From: Pseudanabaena galeata CCNP1313
GTDB lineage: Bacteria; Cyanobacteriota; Cyanobacteriia; Pseudanabaenales; Pseudanabaenaceae
Assembly: GCF_029910235.1 (NCBI RefSeq)
Contig: NZ_CP112874.1
Location: forward strand, 3,348,001-3,412,000
Length of the DNA stretch: 64,000 nt
Reading direction: 5' to 3'
Numbering within the stretch: the first letter of the stretch is position 1; every line of letters starts with the position of its first letter. The notes beneath the pieces are model-generated. The model was not told the DNA's origin. It ran no database searches and was given only the letters and a program-made list of their open reading frames with translations. Below, in pieces: positions 56,210 to 63,032 of the stretch. Position numbers and translations under genes: made by a program.

Positions 56210-59020
56210 ATGCAAAATATCCTAGATTATGTTCAATGCGGTATTTTTGTTTTGGCTATAGAGTCAAACTTGCAAGTATCAGATGGAAAGGAACAAGATC
56301 ATCAATCATTGACATTGCGATTTGTGAATGCCAATCTTATCTTTGTTCATCTCATTTTCGGGGAACGGAGCATCGATCAAACCGTTGATATATTTGGCTT
56401 GCAGCCAAAAGAATGTTTACCATTAGAATTTGCTCAGTTGTTAAATGAGCATGTTATTCAATGCTTGAAAACACAGCAAGTTGCTGTGTTTTCAACACAA
56501 CTTGATTTGGTGACAAATAGACTGTTATCGATTTCGCTATCCCTAAGGATTGATAGCAACGATCATTCCCAACAAATTGTTGGTACTTGCCAAGACATTA
56601 CGTCCCTAGAATTATCCAAATCAAAGATTAAAGAATTTAACCAAAAAAAATTCAGCCATTTAGTAAGTGAAGTCTCTGATGCCTTTGTGGTAGTTGATCA
56701 TGAAGGTATTGTCCGCTACGTCAATCAGTCTGCTGAAATCCTGTTTGGCTGTAAATCTGACGATATTATCGGTGAGACTTTTGGACTACCTGTAGTAGCA
56801 GGCGAAAGCACAGATATCGACATTCTCAACCGAGGTCGTACCACCTCGGCGGAAATGCGTGTGTCTGAGACCATGGATGAAGATCGTAGAGTTTATGTGG
56901 TCGCCTCATTGCGAGACATTTCAGAACGGAAGCGGGTGGAAAAATCTCTACAATTACGTGAACGAGCGATCGCGGCAAGCTCTAACGGAATCGTCATTAC
57001 CGATGCGACTCAGCCCAATAATCCGATGATTTATGTGAATCCTAGCTTTGAGAGGATTACAGGTTACAGTGCGGCTGAGGTGCTAGGACGGGACTGTCGC
57101 TTTTTGCAAGGAGGCGATCGCAATCAGATCGGACTTTTAGATTTACACAACGCAATTAAAGAAAAGCGAGAATGTCATGCTGTCTTACTTAACTATCGTA
57201 AAGATGGCACACCATTTTGGAATGATTTGTACATTGCGCCAGTATTTAACGATCATGGCGACCTCACTAACTACATTGGCATTCAAACCGACATTACCGA
57301 TCAAGTTAAATCTACCCAAAGACTCCTTGAAAGTGAAGAGCGGTTACGGACAGTTCTAACATCGATCAAAGAAGGGATTACCTTTAGTGATGATTCAGGC
57401 TATTTTGCGATTTTCAATGCTGGCATGGAAAATCTTACTGGATATACCTTTACGGAAGCAAATGCCAGCCATGATTTTACAACTTTCCTCTATCCCGATC
57501 GCGCTGAACATGACAAAGCTTTGCAACGATTGCAACATTTACAGGAAACTGGGCAAGCGATGACGGTCGAAACTCGCATTTGTCATCGTGATGGCACATT
57601 TAAAGATGTCTTAGTTTCTACAAGGTTAATGGCCTACAAAGGCAAACGGATGTATTTGAGTAGTTATTACGACATTACCGAGCGTAAGAAAGTGGAGACT
57701 CAACTACGTTATCAAGGTGAAAGAGAACGCTTATTGAATGCAATTTTACTTAAAATTCAATGCGAATTAAATCTTGATCAAATTCTTGCCATTACTGTTA
57801 AAGAAGCCCAAGAATTATTACGCATTGATCGTGTGGTTATTTACCAATTTAAAGAAGATTGGAGTGGTGCATTTGTGGTGGAAGCAATTAATGATCCAGC
57901 ATTATCTATTCTTGGAAAAACAATTAATGATGCCTGCTTTAATCAAGAGAATATACAGAAATATCAAAATCGATCAATTTCAAGTATAAATGATGTGGAT
58001 CTTGAAGATTTAACCCCCTGTCATAAAGACCTTTTGCAATGTTTTCAAGTAAAAGCAAATATTGTAGTTTCTATTGCCTTTGGTGATACGTTATGGGGAT
58101 TATTAATTGCCCATCAATGCTTTGCACCACGTCAATGGGAGGAATTTGAAATTGATTTGCTAAGACAGTTAGCTAATCATGTAGCGATCGCCATTCAACA
58201 GGTAAAGTTATTTGAAAGAGTCCAAGACCTTAATAAAAATCTAGAAAGACAAGTTGCCGATCGCACCCAGCAACTAGAACAAAGTCTCAGTCAACTAGAA
58301 AGAGCTTTGCTAAAGGAGAAAGAGCTAAATGAACTCAAATCCCAATTTATTTCTAGAGCCTCCCATGAATTTCGCACACCCCTAGCTACGATTCAGACGG
58401 CAAGTGATTTACTGCGAAATTATGGTCATAAAATGTCAGACGAGAAAAAACTAGAGAGAATTGATAAAATCCAACGTGAAGTTAAAGGCATGACTAACCT
58501 TTTAGAAGAGGTATTAATCATCGGCAAAACTGAATCAGGAAGATTTGAGTTACAGTTAGAAGAGATCAATCTTGAAGATTTCTGTCTAGAAATTATTGAA
58601 CAAACTAAGTTGCTAGGAAATGGTAAACATCAAGTTATTTTTAAAAATATAAATATTCCTACCAAAGTAAGAATTGACCCTAAATTCTTCAGGCAAATCA
58701 TTTCCAATTTATTGTCCAATGCAATTAAATATTCGCCTAATGCCAGTGAAGTCAAGTTTACAATCTCGTCAACCAATGATCGCGTATCAAAACTTTTGTT
58801 GGAGTTTCAAGATCATGGGATTGGTATCCCTCAAATCGATCAAGAAAAGATTTTTGACCATTTTTATCGCGCCCACAATGTTGGTATGATTGTAGGAACT
58901 GGATTGGGGATGGCAATTATCAAAAATTCAGTGGACATTCTTGGGGGAACAATTCAACTTAATAGTGTTGAAAACAAGGGAACAACTGTAAAGGTAAAAC
59001 TACCTTACCTAAAGGAATAG
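56210..59020 (+). CDS. Hybrid photoreceptor histidine kinase: PAS, LOV-like, PAS, DXCF cyanobacteriochrome GAF, HisKA-HATPase
   Basis: 936 residues, no membrane helix. Residues ~145-245 are a PAS. ~250-370 is a LOV-like PAS: GRDCRFLQGGDRNQ with Cys296, then LLNYRKDGTPFWND and YIGIQTDIT, all flavin-site positions (the first Asn is Asp). ~380-500 is another PAS (SEERLRTVLTSIKEGITFSD). ~515-670 is a GAF with DACF (Cys576) and PCHKDLL (Cys604-His605), the two cysteines of DXCF cyanobacteriochromes. HisKA has His719 (SRASHEFRTPL); the ATPase follows (SNLLSNAIKYSPNAS, GTGLGMAI). The REC-GGDEF-EAL gene starts 8 bp downstream, a likely output partner. Confidence 0.88.
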   Translation: MQNILDYVQCGIFVLAIESNLQVSDGKEQDHQSLTLRFVNANLIFVHLIFGERSIDQTVDIFGLQPKECLPLEFAQLLNEHVIQCLKTQQVAVFSTQLDLVTNRLLSISLSLRIDSNDHSQQIVGTCQDITSLELSKSKIKEFNQKKFSHLVSEVSDAFVVVDHEGIVRYVNQSAEILFGCKSDDIIGETFGLPVVAGESTDIDILNRGRTTSAEMRVSETMDEDRRVYVVASLRDISERKRVEKSLQLRERAIAASSNGIVITDATQPNNPMIYVNPSFERITGYSAAEVLGRDCRFLQGGDRNQIGLLDLHNAIKEKRECHAVLLNYRKDGTPFWNDLYIAPVFNDHGDLTNYIGIQTDITDQVKSTQRLLESEERLRTVLTSIKEGITFSDDSGYFAIFNAGMENLTGYTFTEANASHDFTTFLYPDRAEHDKALQRLQHLQETGQAMTVETRICHRDGTFKDVLVSTRLMAYKGKRMYLSSYYDITERKKVETQLRYQGERERLLNAILLKIQCELNLDQILAITVKEAQELLRIDRVVIYQFKEDWSGAFVVEAINDPALSILGKTINDACFNQENIQKYQNRSISSINDVDLEDLTPCHKDLLQCFQVKANIVVSIAFGDTLWGLLIAHQCFAPRQWEEFEIDLLRQLANHVAIAIQQVKLFERVQDLNKNLERQVADRTQQLEQSLSQLERALLKEKELNELKSQFISRASHEFRTPLATIQTASDLLRNYGHKMSDEKKLERIDKIQREVKGMTNLLEEVLIIGKTESGRFELQLEEINLEDFCLEIIEQTKLLGNGKHQVIFKNINIPTKVRIDPKFFRQIISNLLSNAIKYSPNASEVKFTISSTNDRVSKLLLEFQDHGIGIPQIDQEKIFDHFYRAHNVGMIVGTGLGMAIIKNSVDILGGTIQLNSVENKGTTVKVKLPYLKE

Positions 59021-59028
59021 ATACAATT

Positions 59029-60765
59029 ATGACCACAATTCTAGTCATCGAAGATGTAGAAGCTTTGCGCGAAGAAATCATGGAGACTCTCTCCTACGAA
59101 GGTTTTGATGTACTGGGCGCAGAGAATGGAGTTGTTGGTGTCCAAATCGCCAAAACCTATTTACCAAATTTGATTATCTGTGACATCGCAATGCCCGAAC
59201 TGGATGGTTATGGAACCCTAGTTGCGCTGCGCCAAGAGCCAAAAACATCAATGATTCCGTTTATATTTTTAACGGCTATGACCGAAAAAGCGGATATGCG
59301 TCAAGCGATGCAACTAGGCGCAGATGACTATCTTACTAAGCCATTTACTTCTGCGGAATTGTTAGGGGCGATCGCCTCACGATTGCAAAAGTACAACTCC
59401 GTTAGAGAGCATTACTATGATGAAATCAAAGCTGTGGGGGAAAGATTTGAATACTTGTCTCACCATGATGGTTTGACTCAACTACCAAATCGCATCCTTT
59501 TTCATGAATCATTAAGCCAAGCTGTATTACACGCCAAGATCAATAACAAGGCTCTAGCCTTGTTGTTTCTGGATATGGACAATTTTAATATCATCAACAA
59601 CACACTTGGCAATGATATTGGCGATCAATTATTTAAAGCGATCGCCGAACGTCTAAGACGTTATGCAGCCCCATGCGATATGGTCGCAAGGATACAGGGT
59701 GATGAATTTGCACTGATCATCTCTGATGTCAAAGATCCAGTCAGTATTAAACTGGAAACCCAAAAAATATTGGATCTCTTAAGTCGTCCTTACAATTTGT
59801 ATGGACATGAGGTTTTTATTACTAGTAGTATTGGCATCACCATTTTTCCTGAAGACCATCAGGATGCTGAGGGATTAATCAAAAATGCTGAATTAGCAAT
59901 GTATTACGCTAAAAGCCATGGCAGGAATAGCTATAAATTCTACAGTTCAGATCTGAATGTACAGTCTTCAGAATACATGGCGTTAGCCAATAGCCTGCAT
60001 CGCGCCATTGATCGCAATGAACTGCGGGTTTTCTATCAGCCTCTCGTGGATCTCCAATCTGGTCAAATTGTCGGTGCGGAAGCCCTAGCCAGATGGCAAC
60101 ATCCAGATTTAGGAATTATTATGCCAAGCAAGTTTATTCCCGTTGCTGAGCAAACAGGTCTAATGCTCCGTTTGACTGAAGTAATTCTTTATTCAGTTTG
60201 TGAGCAAATGCAAGCGTGGCGTAAGGCAGACATAGATTATGGATTTGTGGCAGTTAATCTATCTGGTCAACATTTTCGTCCAGATAATAATCTAATAGAA
60301 TTAATTGGTAAGGTCTTACAAGACACTGGGATTGATCCAGAACACTTAGAACTTGAGCTTACAGAAAGTATCATCATGCAAAATGCTGAATTTACAATTC
60401 AGGTACTTTCTCAGTTACAGGCAATTGGCGTAAAAGTAGCGATCGACGATTTTGGTACAGGCTATTCGTCTTTAAGCTACCTTAAGCACTTTCCCGTAAA
60501 TACCTTGAAGATCGATCGCTGTTTTATTCAAGACATCACTACAGATCGCCATGATGCGACGATTTCCCTAGCCATTATCGATCTTGCCCATAGTTTGTCA
60601 TTGCAAGTTATCGCTGAAGGTGTCGAGACTGCCGAGCAGATTCAGTTTTTAAAAGAGAATAATTGCGATCAGGTTCAGGGCTATTTCTTTAGCCCCCCAT
60701 TACCTGCACCTGAGTTTGAGAAAATGTTGATTGATGGTAAATGTTTATACGCAATGTGCAACTAA
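59029..60765 (+). CDS. REC-GGDEF-EAL cyclic-di-GMP protein (probable phosphodiesterase)
   Basis: 578 residues. Receiver ~1-120 with Asp52 (LIICDIAMPELDG) and KPF. GGDEF domain ~140-305 whose active loop reads QGDEF (RIQGDEFALII), so cyclase activity is doubtful. EAL domain ~320-570 intact: GAEALARW, ELTESIIM, AIDDFGTGYSSL, KIDRCF and AEGVETAEQ. Predicted to hydrolyse c-di-GMP when phosphorylated by the kinase encoded 8 bp upstream. GGAATAG, shared with the kinase stop region, is the likely ribosome-binding site. Confidence 0.92.
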   Translation: MTTILVIEDVEALREEIMETLSYEGFDVLGAENGVVGVQIAKTYLPNLIICDIAMPELDGYGTLVALRQEPKTSMIPFIFLTAMTEKADMRQAMQLGADDYLTKPFTSAELLGAIASRLQKYNSVREHYYDEIKAVGERFEYLSHHDGLTQLPNRILFHESLSQAVLHAKINNKALALLFLDMDNFNIINNTLGNDIGDQLFKAIAERLRRYAAPCDMVARIQGDEFALIISDVKDPVSIKLETQKILDLLSRPYNLYGHEVFITSSIGITIFPEDHQDAEGLIKNAELAMYYAKSHGRNSYKFYSSDLNVQSSEYMALANSLHRAIDRNELRVFYQPLVDLQSGQIVGAEALARWQHPDLGIIMPSKFIPVAEQTGLMLRLTEVILYSVCEQMQAWRKADIDYGFVAVNLSGQHFRPDNNLIELIGKVLQDTGIDPEHLELELTESIIMQNAEFTIQVLSQLQAIGVKVAIDDFGTGYSSLSYLKHFPVNTLKIDRCFIQDITTDRHDATISLAIIDLAHSLSLQVIAEGVETAEQIQFLKENNCDQVQGYFFSPPLPAPEFEKMLIDGKCLYAMCN

Positions 60766-61193: not shown

Positions 61194-61616
61194 TCACCCT
61201 ATGCTCCCATATTTTTGTTTTATAATCTGTTCAATTTCTTGACAAATTTCTTCCAGAAATGGTGCTTCTGATGGAACAATGTTGTTCTCCTGTTGTTGAT
61301 GCTTGTGGTGTGGGAATGTTGATATATTTAGCTTTTGGTGATGGGGGGCATTATCATAACGGAAGATTAGCTGATCATCTTGATCCATATATTGATAGGA
61401 ATATTTACCTCCATCAATTGATAATTCTACATCCACAAATTCTCGGATGTGCAGGATAGTTCGATCTTGGAAATATACGACACCTCTAATAAATCCAATG
61501 TATTCGGCTCTTGCTTCTGTTTCAAGCTCGAATTTCTGCACGATCGCTAAACAGTTCAGAAAACTTCTAATTCTGGCAAAATATTCTTCAATCAACAAAT
61601 TCAATCCCCTTGACAA
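61194..61616 (-). CDS. TumE-like toxin (DUF6516)
   Basis: 140 residues. The signature DDQLIFRYDNAPHHQKLNIS then TFPHHKH is typical of TumE-family proteins. TTG start at 61616 lies inside the 3' end of the upstream partner (29-bp overlap), suggesting translational coupling. TumE members act as toxins of type II pairs; cleavage or modification targets are not clear. The last ~60 residues are polar (HHKHQQQENNIVPSEAPFLE). Confidence 0.78.
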   Translation of the reverse strand: MSRGLNLLIEEYFARIRSFLNCLAIVQKFELETEARAEYIGFIRGVVYFQDRTILHIREFVDVELSIDGGKYSYQYMDQDDQLIFRYDNAPHHQKLNISTFPHHKHQQQENNIVPSEAPFLEEICQEIEQIIKQKYGSIG

Positions 61617-61908
61617 TTGCGATTTTTTGTTGCAATTTTTCTAACATCCATGCTTCTCCGAGCCATTCGTCAAAGTCAAAGCTATGCTGTAGTTGATCGC
61701 TGGTAAAAAGATTGATAAATGTTTCAGTTGACCATTGATATTTTGTTTCAAATTGTTGTAATCGTATTTGAGTTTGTTGTAGTCCTAATTCAAGAGTTTG
61801 TAATCTTTTCGCAAAGTCACTTTGAATCATCTCTCTGATCGATGCTGGATGGTTCGATCGCAGTTTGATAATATTTTTGATTTTGGTGTTTATAGGCTGC
61901 ACTGTCAT
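61588..61908 (-). CDS. TumA-like antitoxin
   Basis: About 106 residues from ATG 61908 (MTVQPINTKIKNIIKLRSNH). Helical, with a coiled-coil middle (LQTLELGLQQTQIRLQQFET). AAAGGAGG 7-8 bp before 61908 decides the start over ATG 61914 and 61929. Overlaps the TumE-like gene by 29 bp. Family assignment rests mainly on its position beside the TumE-like gene. Confidence 0.65.
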   Translation of the reverse strand: MTVQPINTKIKNIIKLRSNHPASIREMIQSDFAKRLQTLELGLQQTQIRLQQFETKYQWSTETFINLFTSDQLQHSFDFDEWLGEAWMLEKLQQKIAIVKGIEFVD

Positions 61909-61981
61909 TCCCATTCCTCCTTTAATCAATAGAATTCATCTTTTTATCTCTGCTATTATTATACAGCGAGCGCCTAAATCT

Positions 61982-62174
61982 TCTGTATCTAACCACGATC
62001 GCCTCTCATCAAACCCCAATAATCGCGTTGGGACTAAGCAATCGGCGATCGCCCTTACTTGAGGATGCTGATAATGATGGGCATTCGCTGTCAATGTTAC
62101 AGAAAATTGCTGGCGCTCTCAATCAGAAGGTTGAGATTAAGTTTTCAGCGATCGCGTCTTGAGACGAGTTTGGT
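61982..62174 (+). pseudogene. Decayed antitoxin 3' fragment, copy 2
   Basis: The frame reads LEDADNDGHSLSMLQKIAGA then LNQKVEIKFSAIAS and a stop. The upstream part (ATCGCCTCTCATCAA... CGCGTTGGGACTAAGCAATC) matches copy 1. No start codon and no N-terminal HTH remain. Confidence 0.65.
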
Positions 62175-62189
62175 GTTCCTTCTTAATAG

Positions 62190-62609
62190 TTATTTTAAAA
62201 TCAGATTCTGAAAATGTTGGTATGAAATAATTTCTACACCTTGAAAAGGGTTTAATATCAACAAATCTGCATCACCTGTGACTAGGTAATTTGCATGACC
62301 TGATACGGCTAAATCCAAGAGGAAGTTATCTTTTGCATCTCGACAATCTTCAAAATGGTGAGTAATTTCGATCAATTCAACTTTTTCATAGAGAAGTGTG
62401 ACTAAATCTTCAATGGCGGTTTCTGAAAAGTATTTTTTAAATTTTGGACGTTTCAAAACTTTAATTAATTCGCCAAATAGGTCATCGCTAAATAGAACGA
62501 TTACTTGATCGCTAATAATGGCTTGGCTAAGACCTGTAAGTGATTTGCCAATGAGAAAGCTAATCCAAATATTCGTGTCGATAACAAGGCGAAGTGGATT
62601 ACCTTGCAT
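62190..62609 (-). CDS. PIN-domain toxin
   Basis: 139 residues. PIN nuclease acidic residues: Asp in LRLVIDTNIWISFLIG, DDLFGEL, CRDAKDNFLLDLAVSGHANY and VTGDADLL. It matches the family of putative toxins with an N-terminal VIDTNIWIS and a C-terminal TGD. Start overlaps the upstream antitoxin by 11 bp. RNA cleavage is expected. Confidence 0.85.
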   Translation of the reverse strand: MQGNPLRLVIDTNIWISFLIGKSLTGLSQAIISDQVIVLFSDDLFGELIKVLKRPKFKKYFSETAIEDLVTLLYEKVELIEITHHFEDCRDAKDNFLLDLAVSGHANYLVTGDADLLILNPFQGVEIISYQHFQNLILK

Positions 62610-62817
62610 GATAATTTGCTTGCCTTACGGCTTCAACTTCTTGAGTAATATCTTCTAAACTTAGCTCATTAGTTTGTACTGAACTTAAAAATTTATTGAA
62701 TCTCACTGAAAATGTGTCTTTTTCTAGCAACTGCAATAATTCCAGCTTTTCTTGTAGATTGCATTGCGAGATTACTGTTTTAAGTTGGGAAAAGTCTATG
62801 GAGATGGACACATTCAT
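62599..62817 (-). CDS. Antitoxin partner of the PIN toxin
   Basis: 72 residues from ATG 62817: MNVSISIDFSQLKTVISQCN, then LQEKLELLQLLEKDTFSVRF. Small helical protein with an early beta strand, similar in layout to type II antitoxins beside PIN toxins. TAGGACGG precedes the ATG. The longer ORF to 62937 reads through antitoxin-fragment copy 3 and is rejected. Confidence 0.68.
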   Translation of the reverse strand: MNVSISIDFSQLKTVISQCNLQEKLELLQLLEKDTFSVRFNKFLSSVQTNELSLEDITQEVEAVRQANYHAR

Positions 62818-62865
62818 TTTTGCCGTCCTACAAAAAATCATTAGCATTTGGATACTGCTAACATT

Positions 62866-63032
62866 GTACAACGATCGCTTTGGTACTAAACAATCAGTGA
62901 TTCGCCCTTGCTTGATGCTGCTGATTATGATGGGCATTCGCTGTCAATGTTACAGAAAATTGCTGGCGCTCTCAATCAAAAAGTTGAAATTAAGTTTTCA
63001 GCGATCGCGCCTTGAGACGAGTTTGGTGTAGG
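62866..63032 (+). pseudogene. Decayed antitoxin 3' fragment, copy 3
   Basis: The frame reads LDAADYDGHSLSMLQKIAGA then LNQKVEIKFSAIAP and a stop. The best-preserved copy in its last 35 codons, but no upstream start. A further short remnant (CGCCTAAATCATCAGTCTCT) appears at 63600. Confidence 0.65.

Follow-up and report, generated by a model that had tools for sequence, protein, structure and literature searches.

The closest functional precedent for the gene pair described here is CdgK-CdgS (All2875-All2874) of Anabaena PCC 7120, which passages of PMC9927289 describe as a kinase with multiple PAS domains and a GAF domain that is co-transcribed with a GGDEF regulator, in a relay demonstrated by genetics and, in part, in vitro; one PAS domain of CdgK binds flavin mononucleotide (FMN) according to Narikawa 2006, as cited there. 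A pair of similar form, in which a kinase with PAS, LOV, and GAF domains would drive a REC-bearing regulator of cyclic di-GMP (c-di-GMP), lies in a 64,000-nucleotide stretch of the genome of Pseudanabaena galeata CCNP1313 (contig NZ_CP112874.1, positions 3,348,001 to 3,412,000 of the forward strand), hereafter called the window. Its kinase carries both a LOV domain and a DXCF-class cyanobacteriochrome GAF domain, and what is new is that in relatives the kinase core persists, in nearly all cases together with the regulator, although either the GAF cysteines alone have been lost or else LOV alone, as a whole domain or by its cysteine. We consider it somewhat probable, judging from sequence and conservation, that the pair is a two-component system with two photoreceptors, through which light sets the hydrolysis of c-di-GMP, and that the two sensors act as separable inputs.

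The window pair departs from its precedent in several respects. CdgK is, in the same passages of PMC9927289, a membrane hybrid kinase with a REC-REC-Hpt relay and a regulator that makes c-di-GMP, whereas the window kinase has a DXCF GAF domain and a predicted hydrolase as its partner; neither REC nor Hpt was found in it by Pfam, and the GGDEF domain of its regulator is degenerate. A locus elsewhere in the same genome (L101; G000:C1:4837400-4851800) is CdgK-like, with LOV (NCRFLQ), GAF, HisKA, HATPase, REC, and Hpt domains and a partner gene encoding a REC-GGDEF protein with YGGEEF. This second pair is predicted to make c-di-GMP, opposite to the window pair.

Other described systems share single features with the window. 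SL2 of Synechococcus elongatus is a LOV-GGDEF-EAL phosphodiesterase with LOV-controlled c-di-GMP hydrolysis (as described in part of PMC8846402), but it is a one-component protein with LOV only, whereas the window has a kinase, a separate regulator, and a second sensor. Cyanobacteriochrome control of c-di-GMP is already known as well (passages of PMC9090330). Neochrome, Ppr, and cyanobacteriochrome arrays, all treated in a review of multi-photosensor proteins, place several photosensors on one polypeptide as the window kinase does, but the relevant passage of that review (PMC9614035) names no protein combining LOV with a cyanobacteriochrome. Serial integration of sensors in kinases has been tested on engineered fusions, namely the LOV-plus-heme YHF (part of PMC6798134). 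No described LOV-cyanobacteriochrome kinase was found among the matches listed in the open PMC literature, a source with subscription journals mostly outside its scope, and the system is apparently an undescribed, conserved combination of known modules with a known output theme.

Results

The two genes lie on the same strand, with 8 nt between the kinase stop codon and the ATG of the regulator (Table 1). The kinase consists of an N-terminal PAS-like region, PAS, LOV, PAS, the DXCF GAF domain, HisKA, and HATPase_c, in that order; Pfam reports PAS domains, GAF, HisKA, and HATPase_c in the kinase and REC, GGDEF, and EAL in the regulator. The HisKA histidine, the ATPase domain, and the REC aspartate of an orthodox two-component system are thereby encoded in neighboring genes. 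A first-pass annotation, made from the sequence alone, had placed Cys296, Cys576, Cys604-His605, Asp52, QGDEF, and EAL, and all were located at the residues given; in the regulator, Asp52 lies in CDIAMP, QGDEF begins at residue 223, and EAL begins at residue 351. Because the hydropathy maximum of the kinase (Kyte-Doolittle, 19-residue mean; 1.65 at residue 616) sits inside the GAF core, we assigned it no membrane segment, and the pair is probably cytoplasmic. Scans for promoters (19 versus a shuffled mean of 14.9) and terminators (5 versus 3.6) were uninformative.

A family-level search of 38 genomes identified a kinase orthologue (E below 1e-92) in every one of the 26 genomes of the window's genus, Pseudanabaena, whose members are related, so that the genus counts given here are not independent events. 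The regulator gene adjoins the kinase gene on the same strand in all 26, one copy being cut by a contig end, and the two genes stay together throughout the genus, in keeping with the proposed coupling of the kinase to the EAL protein. Full-length relatives in named genomes (n = 15) came from Pseudanabaena (12), Phormidium tenue (1), and uncultured cyanobacteria (2).

Median ratios of nonsynonymous to synonymous substitution rates (dN/dS) were taken over pairs with dS of 0.1–2 (88–202 of the 300 pairs that 25 genomes give when L183 is omitted) and ranged from 0.026 to 0.247 across all segments. The lowest median among the six kinase segments was that of LOV (0.045), followed by the PAS domain after LOV (0.061), the kinase core (0.074), and GAF (0.077); the PAS domain before LOV (0.109) and the N-terminus (0.247) were less constrained. 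In the regulator, the medians were 0.026 for REC, 0.044 for GGDEF, and 0.060 for EAL. The degenerate GGDEF domain is among the most conserved parts and is therefore likely to be retained for some role, most simply regulation of EAL.

When compared with solved structures, residues 241–377 matched LOV proteins first (best 7r5n, E 4e-43; then 9vf7 and 7a6p), and a predicted-fold search with the LOV segment recovered the same set. Identity in the fold search was 54% to PF5-LOV (7r5n) and 47–48% to PpSB2-LOV (7a6p), with DCRFLQ common to these and the window; both are free-standing short LOV proteins, whereas the window LOV domain is inside a kinase and has His at position 313. The motif GRDCRFLQG begins at residue 293, and the reactive Cys296, within C-R-F-L-Q, is kept in all 26 genus genomes. 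Residue 295, which precedes it, is Asp in the window (genus: Asp in 20 of 26, Asn in 6), as compared to Asn in 92, Ser in 3, Thr in 1, and Asp in none of 96 other surveyed LOV domains with the cysteine. Because the solved LOV proteins 7r5n and 7a6p likewise have Asp before the cysteine, Asp295 may be compatible with flavin chemistry. His313 is shared by 11 of the 26 genus genomes and the other 15 have Arg, which is also the residue in 88 of the 96 other surveyed domains (His in 2) and in the aligned 7r5n and 7a6p. Residues N277, Q300, N328, N338, and Q359, which correspond to flavin-contact positions of oat LOV2, are invariant in the genus (26/26). The earlier claim of a full set of LOV flavin contacts is too strong, as Asp295 replaces the usual Asn and His313 a usual Arg. 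Sequence and conservation support a LOV-class photosensor domain.

The second sensor has DACF at residues 574–577 (Cys576) and PCH from residue 603 (Cys604-His605), the two cysteines being 28 residues apart. Residues 495–690 matched solved cyanobacteriochromes, led by the dual-sensor kinase 6oap (E 7e-42) and members of the miRFP670nano family, whereas TePixJ entries ranked lower (3vv4, E 6e-28); the fold search agreed on the class, and Pfam reported no PHY family in the kinase. The best match, 6oap, differs from the window in that Tyr replaces its DXCF cysteine. TePixJ-type DXCF cyanobacteriochromes (3vv4, 4fof) are like the window GAF in sequence, fold, and the DXCF and CH motifs, but the window GAF shares its kinase with a second photosensor, LOV. 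Within the genus, Cys576 is present in 24 of 26 genomes, Cys604, His605, and both cysteines together in 23 each, and the full D-X-C-F with Cys604 in 20, and the domain is supported as a cyanobacteriochrome-class GAF on these grounds. The predicted folds of both sensory domains find matching families with modest confidence (mean predicted local distance difference test scores of 66 and 60.5), a consequence of shallow alignments, and reliance is placed on the sequence instead. DXCF GAF domains typically turn phycocyanobilin into phycoviolobilin, and their photocycle typically runs from a dark state in the blue to a photoproduct in the green (passages of PMC11284453). Since the 5.84 Mb source genome has four bilin-reductase genes, bilin supply should be no obstacle. 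All four reductases are ferredoxin-dependent, and two are adjacent (C1:1083691-1085118), a hint of phycoerythrobilin synthesis.

The regulator retains Asp52 in all 26 genus members. Its GGDEF domain lacks the GG[D/E]EF signature and has QGDEF instead in all 25 readable genus partners, none of which has Arg at the inhibitory-site position. Ten EAL positions with metal-binding or catalytic roles (E351, N410, E443, E446, D473, D474, K494, E530, E533, and Q550), are all present in the window and all intact in 23 of the 25, in agreement with the earlier description of a degenerate GGDEF domain beside an intact EAL domain.

Relatives that have lost one sensor are found both inside and outside the genus. 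In L160 and L164, the GAF cysteines are replaced by Asn and Ser while LOV retains NCRFLQ; in L181, Tyr replaces Cys604. The GAF domain of the two relatives without either cysteine remains under purifying selection (dN/dS of 0.075, from 11 usable pairs, and 0.101, from 7). For sister genera, 12 genomes were considered, of which 9 were fetched and 8 loci counted (excluded: L158, with a kinase score below the cut-off; G323 and G324, with no match; and G326, which was not fetched). In L154, L155, and L156, LOV is cleanly absent, so that the PAS domains on its two sides directly adjoin in the alignment, and the GAF domain keeps DHCF and CH. The LOV-like domain of L157 lacks the cysteine, and the GAF domain of this protein has DPCF and CH intact; L152 has the LOV cysteine but has lost the DXCF cysteine; L159 and L171 retain the LOV cysteine and both GAF cysteines; and L153 is cut by its contig and covers no judgeable part of LOV. 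The regulator partner is kept in 7 of these 8 loci. On a tree rooted by midpoint, with long branches flagged and L157 the longest, at least two changes are needed for LOV and at least two for the GAF cysteine pair. These single losses, which affect one sensor or the other, speak against both being strictly required and favor separable inputs. As a separate observation, the partners of L154–156 have GGDEF or GGEEF in two of three cases and Glu for Asp at 182 in all three, and an output change may have come along with LOV loss in this single clade.

How common the combination is was addressed by a phylum survey of 292 genomes (at most 14 candidates scored per genome, matches listed to E about 1e-23), 79 of which had a LOV match at E ≤ 1e-20. 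The 126 regions analyzed were every listed match at or below an E of 1.8e-33, other than that of the window itself, plus two that scored less well; 124 were outside the window's family, and 122 yielded LOV proteins above 100 bits, L108 (stop-interrupted) and L151 (too weak) dropping out. By an alignment-column count, 96 of the 122 have the LOV cysteine. GGDEF or EAL is fused in frame in 40; among the remaining 82, a gene with REC and GGDEF or EAL lies alongside in 31, so that c-di-GMP domains are fused or adjacent in 71 of 122. A cyanobacteriochrome-class GAF was found in 15 of the 122, and the LOV cysteine, D-X-C-F, and Cys-His are all intact in 8, from seven genomes (Table 1); as the second cyanobacteriochrome profile was trained partly on proteins that were later scored, these assignments rely on the motif columns. 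The idea that LOV with a DXCF cyanobacteriochrome is unique to the window's family was accordingly rejected, and the combination is less singular than the first-pass annotation had implied. Treating every GAF beside LOV as bilin-binding was also rejected: the lower-scoring GAF domains have no Cys at the canonical column, nor do those of the REC-bearing LOV hybrid kinases in the survey.

Pfam, applied to 7 of the 15 proteins (six of the eight complete ones and L099), found GAF and kinase ATPase domains in each. L072 matches the window in its LOV-PAS-GAF-kinase order, and next to L044 come, downstream, one gene for a REC protein and one for a REC-REC-GGDEF protein bearing GGEEF. In L046 and L061, a cyanobacteriochrome-PAS-PAS-LOV-HisKA_2 kinase gene overlaps a REC-GGDEF-EAL gene, and a full-length copy is present in 3 of the 16 genomes of the genus concerned. 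This pair was rejected as a second light-to-hydrolysis system because the partner has lost key residues of GGDEF (INSNEF) and EAL (LDSFG, AKGVE); with both domains looking dead, the partner may serve as a c-di-GMP effector controlled by two light inputs. Separately, 12 LOV-like kinases lie beside REC-EAL genes (L078, L090, L095, L106, L107, L109, L117, L135, L136, L138, L139, and L144), and in 11 of them the LOV cysteine is absent, L139 keeping it. The missing cysteine suggests flavin or redox sensing without a photoadduct.

Downstream of the regulator, orthologues have gmd and an epimerase gene on the same strand (GDP-mannose 4,6-dehydratase and NAD-dependent epimerase by Pfam) in 22 of the 24 genus genomes whose downstream sequence extends for 1.2 kb or more, gmd being 82–429 nt from the regulator. 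The two genes are absent beside the regulator in the window and in L172; those of the window's genome are at G000:C1:4335073-4337156, and the place that gmd has in most relatives is occupied in the window by toxin-antitoxin-like genes. A link of the system to extracellular sugars is possible.

Table 1. Location of the features discussed in the text (window positions unless a locus is named).
Feature	Location	Strand	Basis
Sensor histidine kinase, open reading frame, 936 aa	56210..59020	+	Orthologue in 26/26 genus genomes
LOV domain, residues 244-372, reactive Cys296	56939..57325	+	PDB and fold matches; Cys in 26/26 genus genomes
DXCF cyanobacteriochrome GAF, residues 506-676, Cys576 and Cys604-His605	57725..58237	+	PDB and fold matches
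Ser718 and His719 codons; His719, predicted phosphoacceptor in SHEFRTPL	58361..58366	+	His719 in 26/26 genus genomes; HisKA by Pfam
Response regulator REC-GGDEF-EAL, open reading frame, 578 aa	59029..60765	+	Pfam; same-strand neighbor of kinase gene
Two toxin-antitoxin-like pairs	61194-62937	-	TumE toxin PF20126; PIN_3 PF13470; two neighbors without Pfam match
gmd and epimerase genes, example	L001:9642-11728	Same as regulator	Pfam
Complete LOV and DXCF/CH proteins outside the family	L044, L046, L061, L071, L072, L111, L112, L113		

Discussion

Our reading of the locus is that LOV would bind FMN and sense blue light with thermal reversion, and that the DXCF GAF domain would carry a bilin, most likely absorbing blue in the dark and green as the photoproduct. 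Both would signal by way of in-line linkers to a single HisKA/HATPase core, such that light on either domain would shift the helical stack into HisKA and alter phosphorylation of Asp52; the core would phosphorylate (or dephosphorylate) this residue of the neighboring regulator and so control the EAL phosphodiesterase, with the degenerate QGDEF domain probably an allosteric or dimerizing module. We infer the chromophores, colors, phosphotransfer, sign of regulation, and phosphodiesterase activity from the encoded domains. The input logic would more likely be additive or OR-like than that of a comparator needing both sensors, because relatives survive with either sensor alone. More tentatively, we suggest that blue light would give a decaying LOV signal and blue/green light a photoreversible cyanobacteriochrome memory, the two being summed on one core controlling c-di-GMP breakdown, with relatives that are LOV-only or bilin-only.

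Several observations weigh against this reading. The additive or OR-like logic is based on few loss events, a midpoint root, and long branches, and L157, the longest of these, has no partner gene within the 1.1 kb before its contig ends. At least one GAF cysteine is lost in 3 of the 26 genus genomes, and the His313 substitution could weaken binding of the FMN phosphate. At the output end, the partners of L162 and L163 (2 of 25) have Lys at 530, which is expected to cripple EAL, and the partners of L154–156 have degenerate EAL domains (Asp at 443, Gln at 530), so that phosphodiesterase output is not universal and that of L154–156 may differ.

The first-pass annotation had proposed that a flavin and a bilin sensor in one kinase would allow color comparison, which is the least secure part of its interpretation. 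In its obligate form, with LOV and the cyanobacteriochrome opposed, the kinase reading a blue/green ratio, and both sensors needed, we think this unlikely. The LOV cysteine and both GAF cysteines are jointly kept in 23 of the 26 genus genomes, as a comparator would predict, and the blue/green photochromism typical of DXCF GAF domains (passages of PMC11284453) means that green light could reset one sensor only. However, relatives with single-sensor losses retain the kinase, and the two dark states would both absorb blue, overlapping instead of opposing. Only green light would thus separate the two sensors, and color comparison cannot be obligatory across the family.

Additive inputs must also be weighed against the idea that LOV is the working eye and GAF is turning into a structural linker. 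That LOV has its cysteine in 26 of 26 genus genomes as compared to 23 for the GAF pair, that no other kinase segment is as constrained as LOV (median dN/dS 0.045 versus 0.077 for GAF), and that GAF stays under purifying selection even in the two relatives without either cysteine are all in keeping with it. Nevertheless, sister genera exhibit the reverse, with LOV gone or cysteine-less and DXCF/CH intact, and the window GAF itself retains both cysteines, the Asp and Phe of DXCF, and His605; we thus regard this explanation as improbable. Least probable of all is that the regulator works chiefly as an effector or scaffold for c-di-GMP or GTP, through which light acts by binding, since the window and all but two readable genus partners have the ten EAL residues, even though the strong conservation of QGDEF and the EAL damage noted above would fit such a role.

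Cyanobacterial LOV proteins are, in our survey, largely tied to c-di-GMP. A single genome can carry two LOV kinases whose outputs are predicted to be opposite, namely hydrolysis for the window pair and synthesis for L101. The family offers native, predicted dual-chromophore kinases together with close relatives minus one sensor, with a measurable enzymatic output. If the two signals are indeed summed on one core, it would be a natural series in which to measure how a single kinase combines two unrelated kinds of photochemistry additively.

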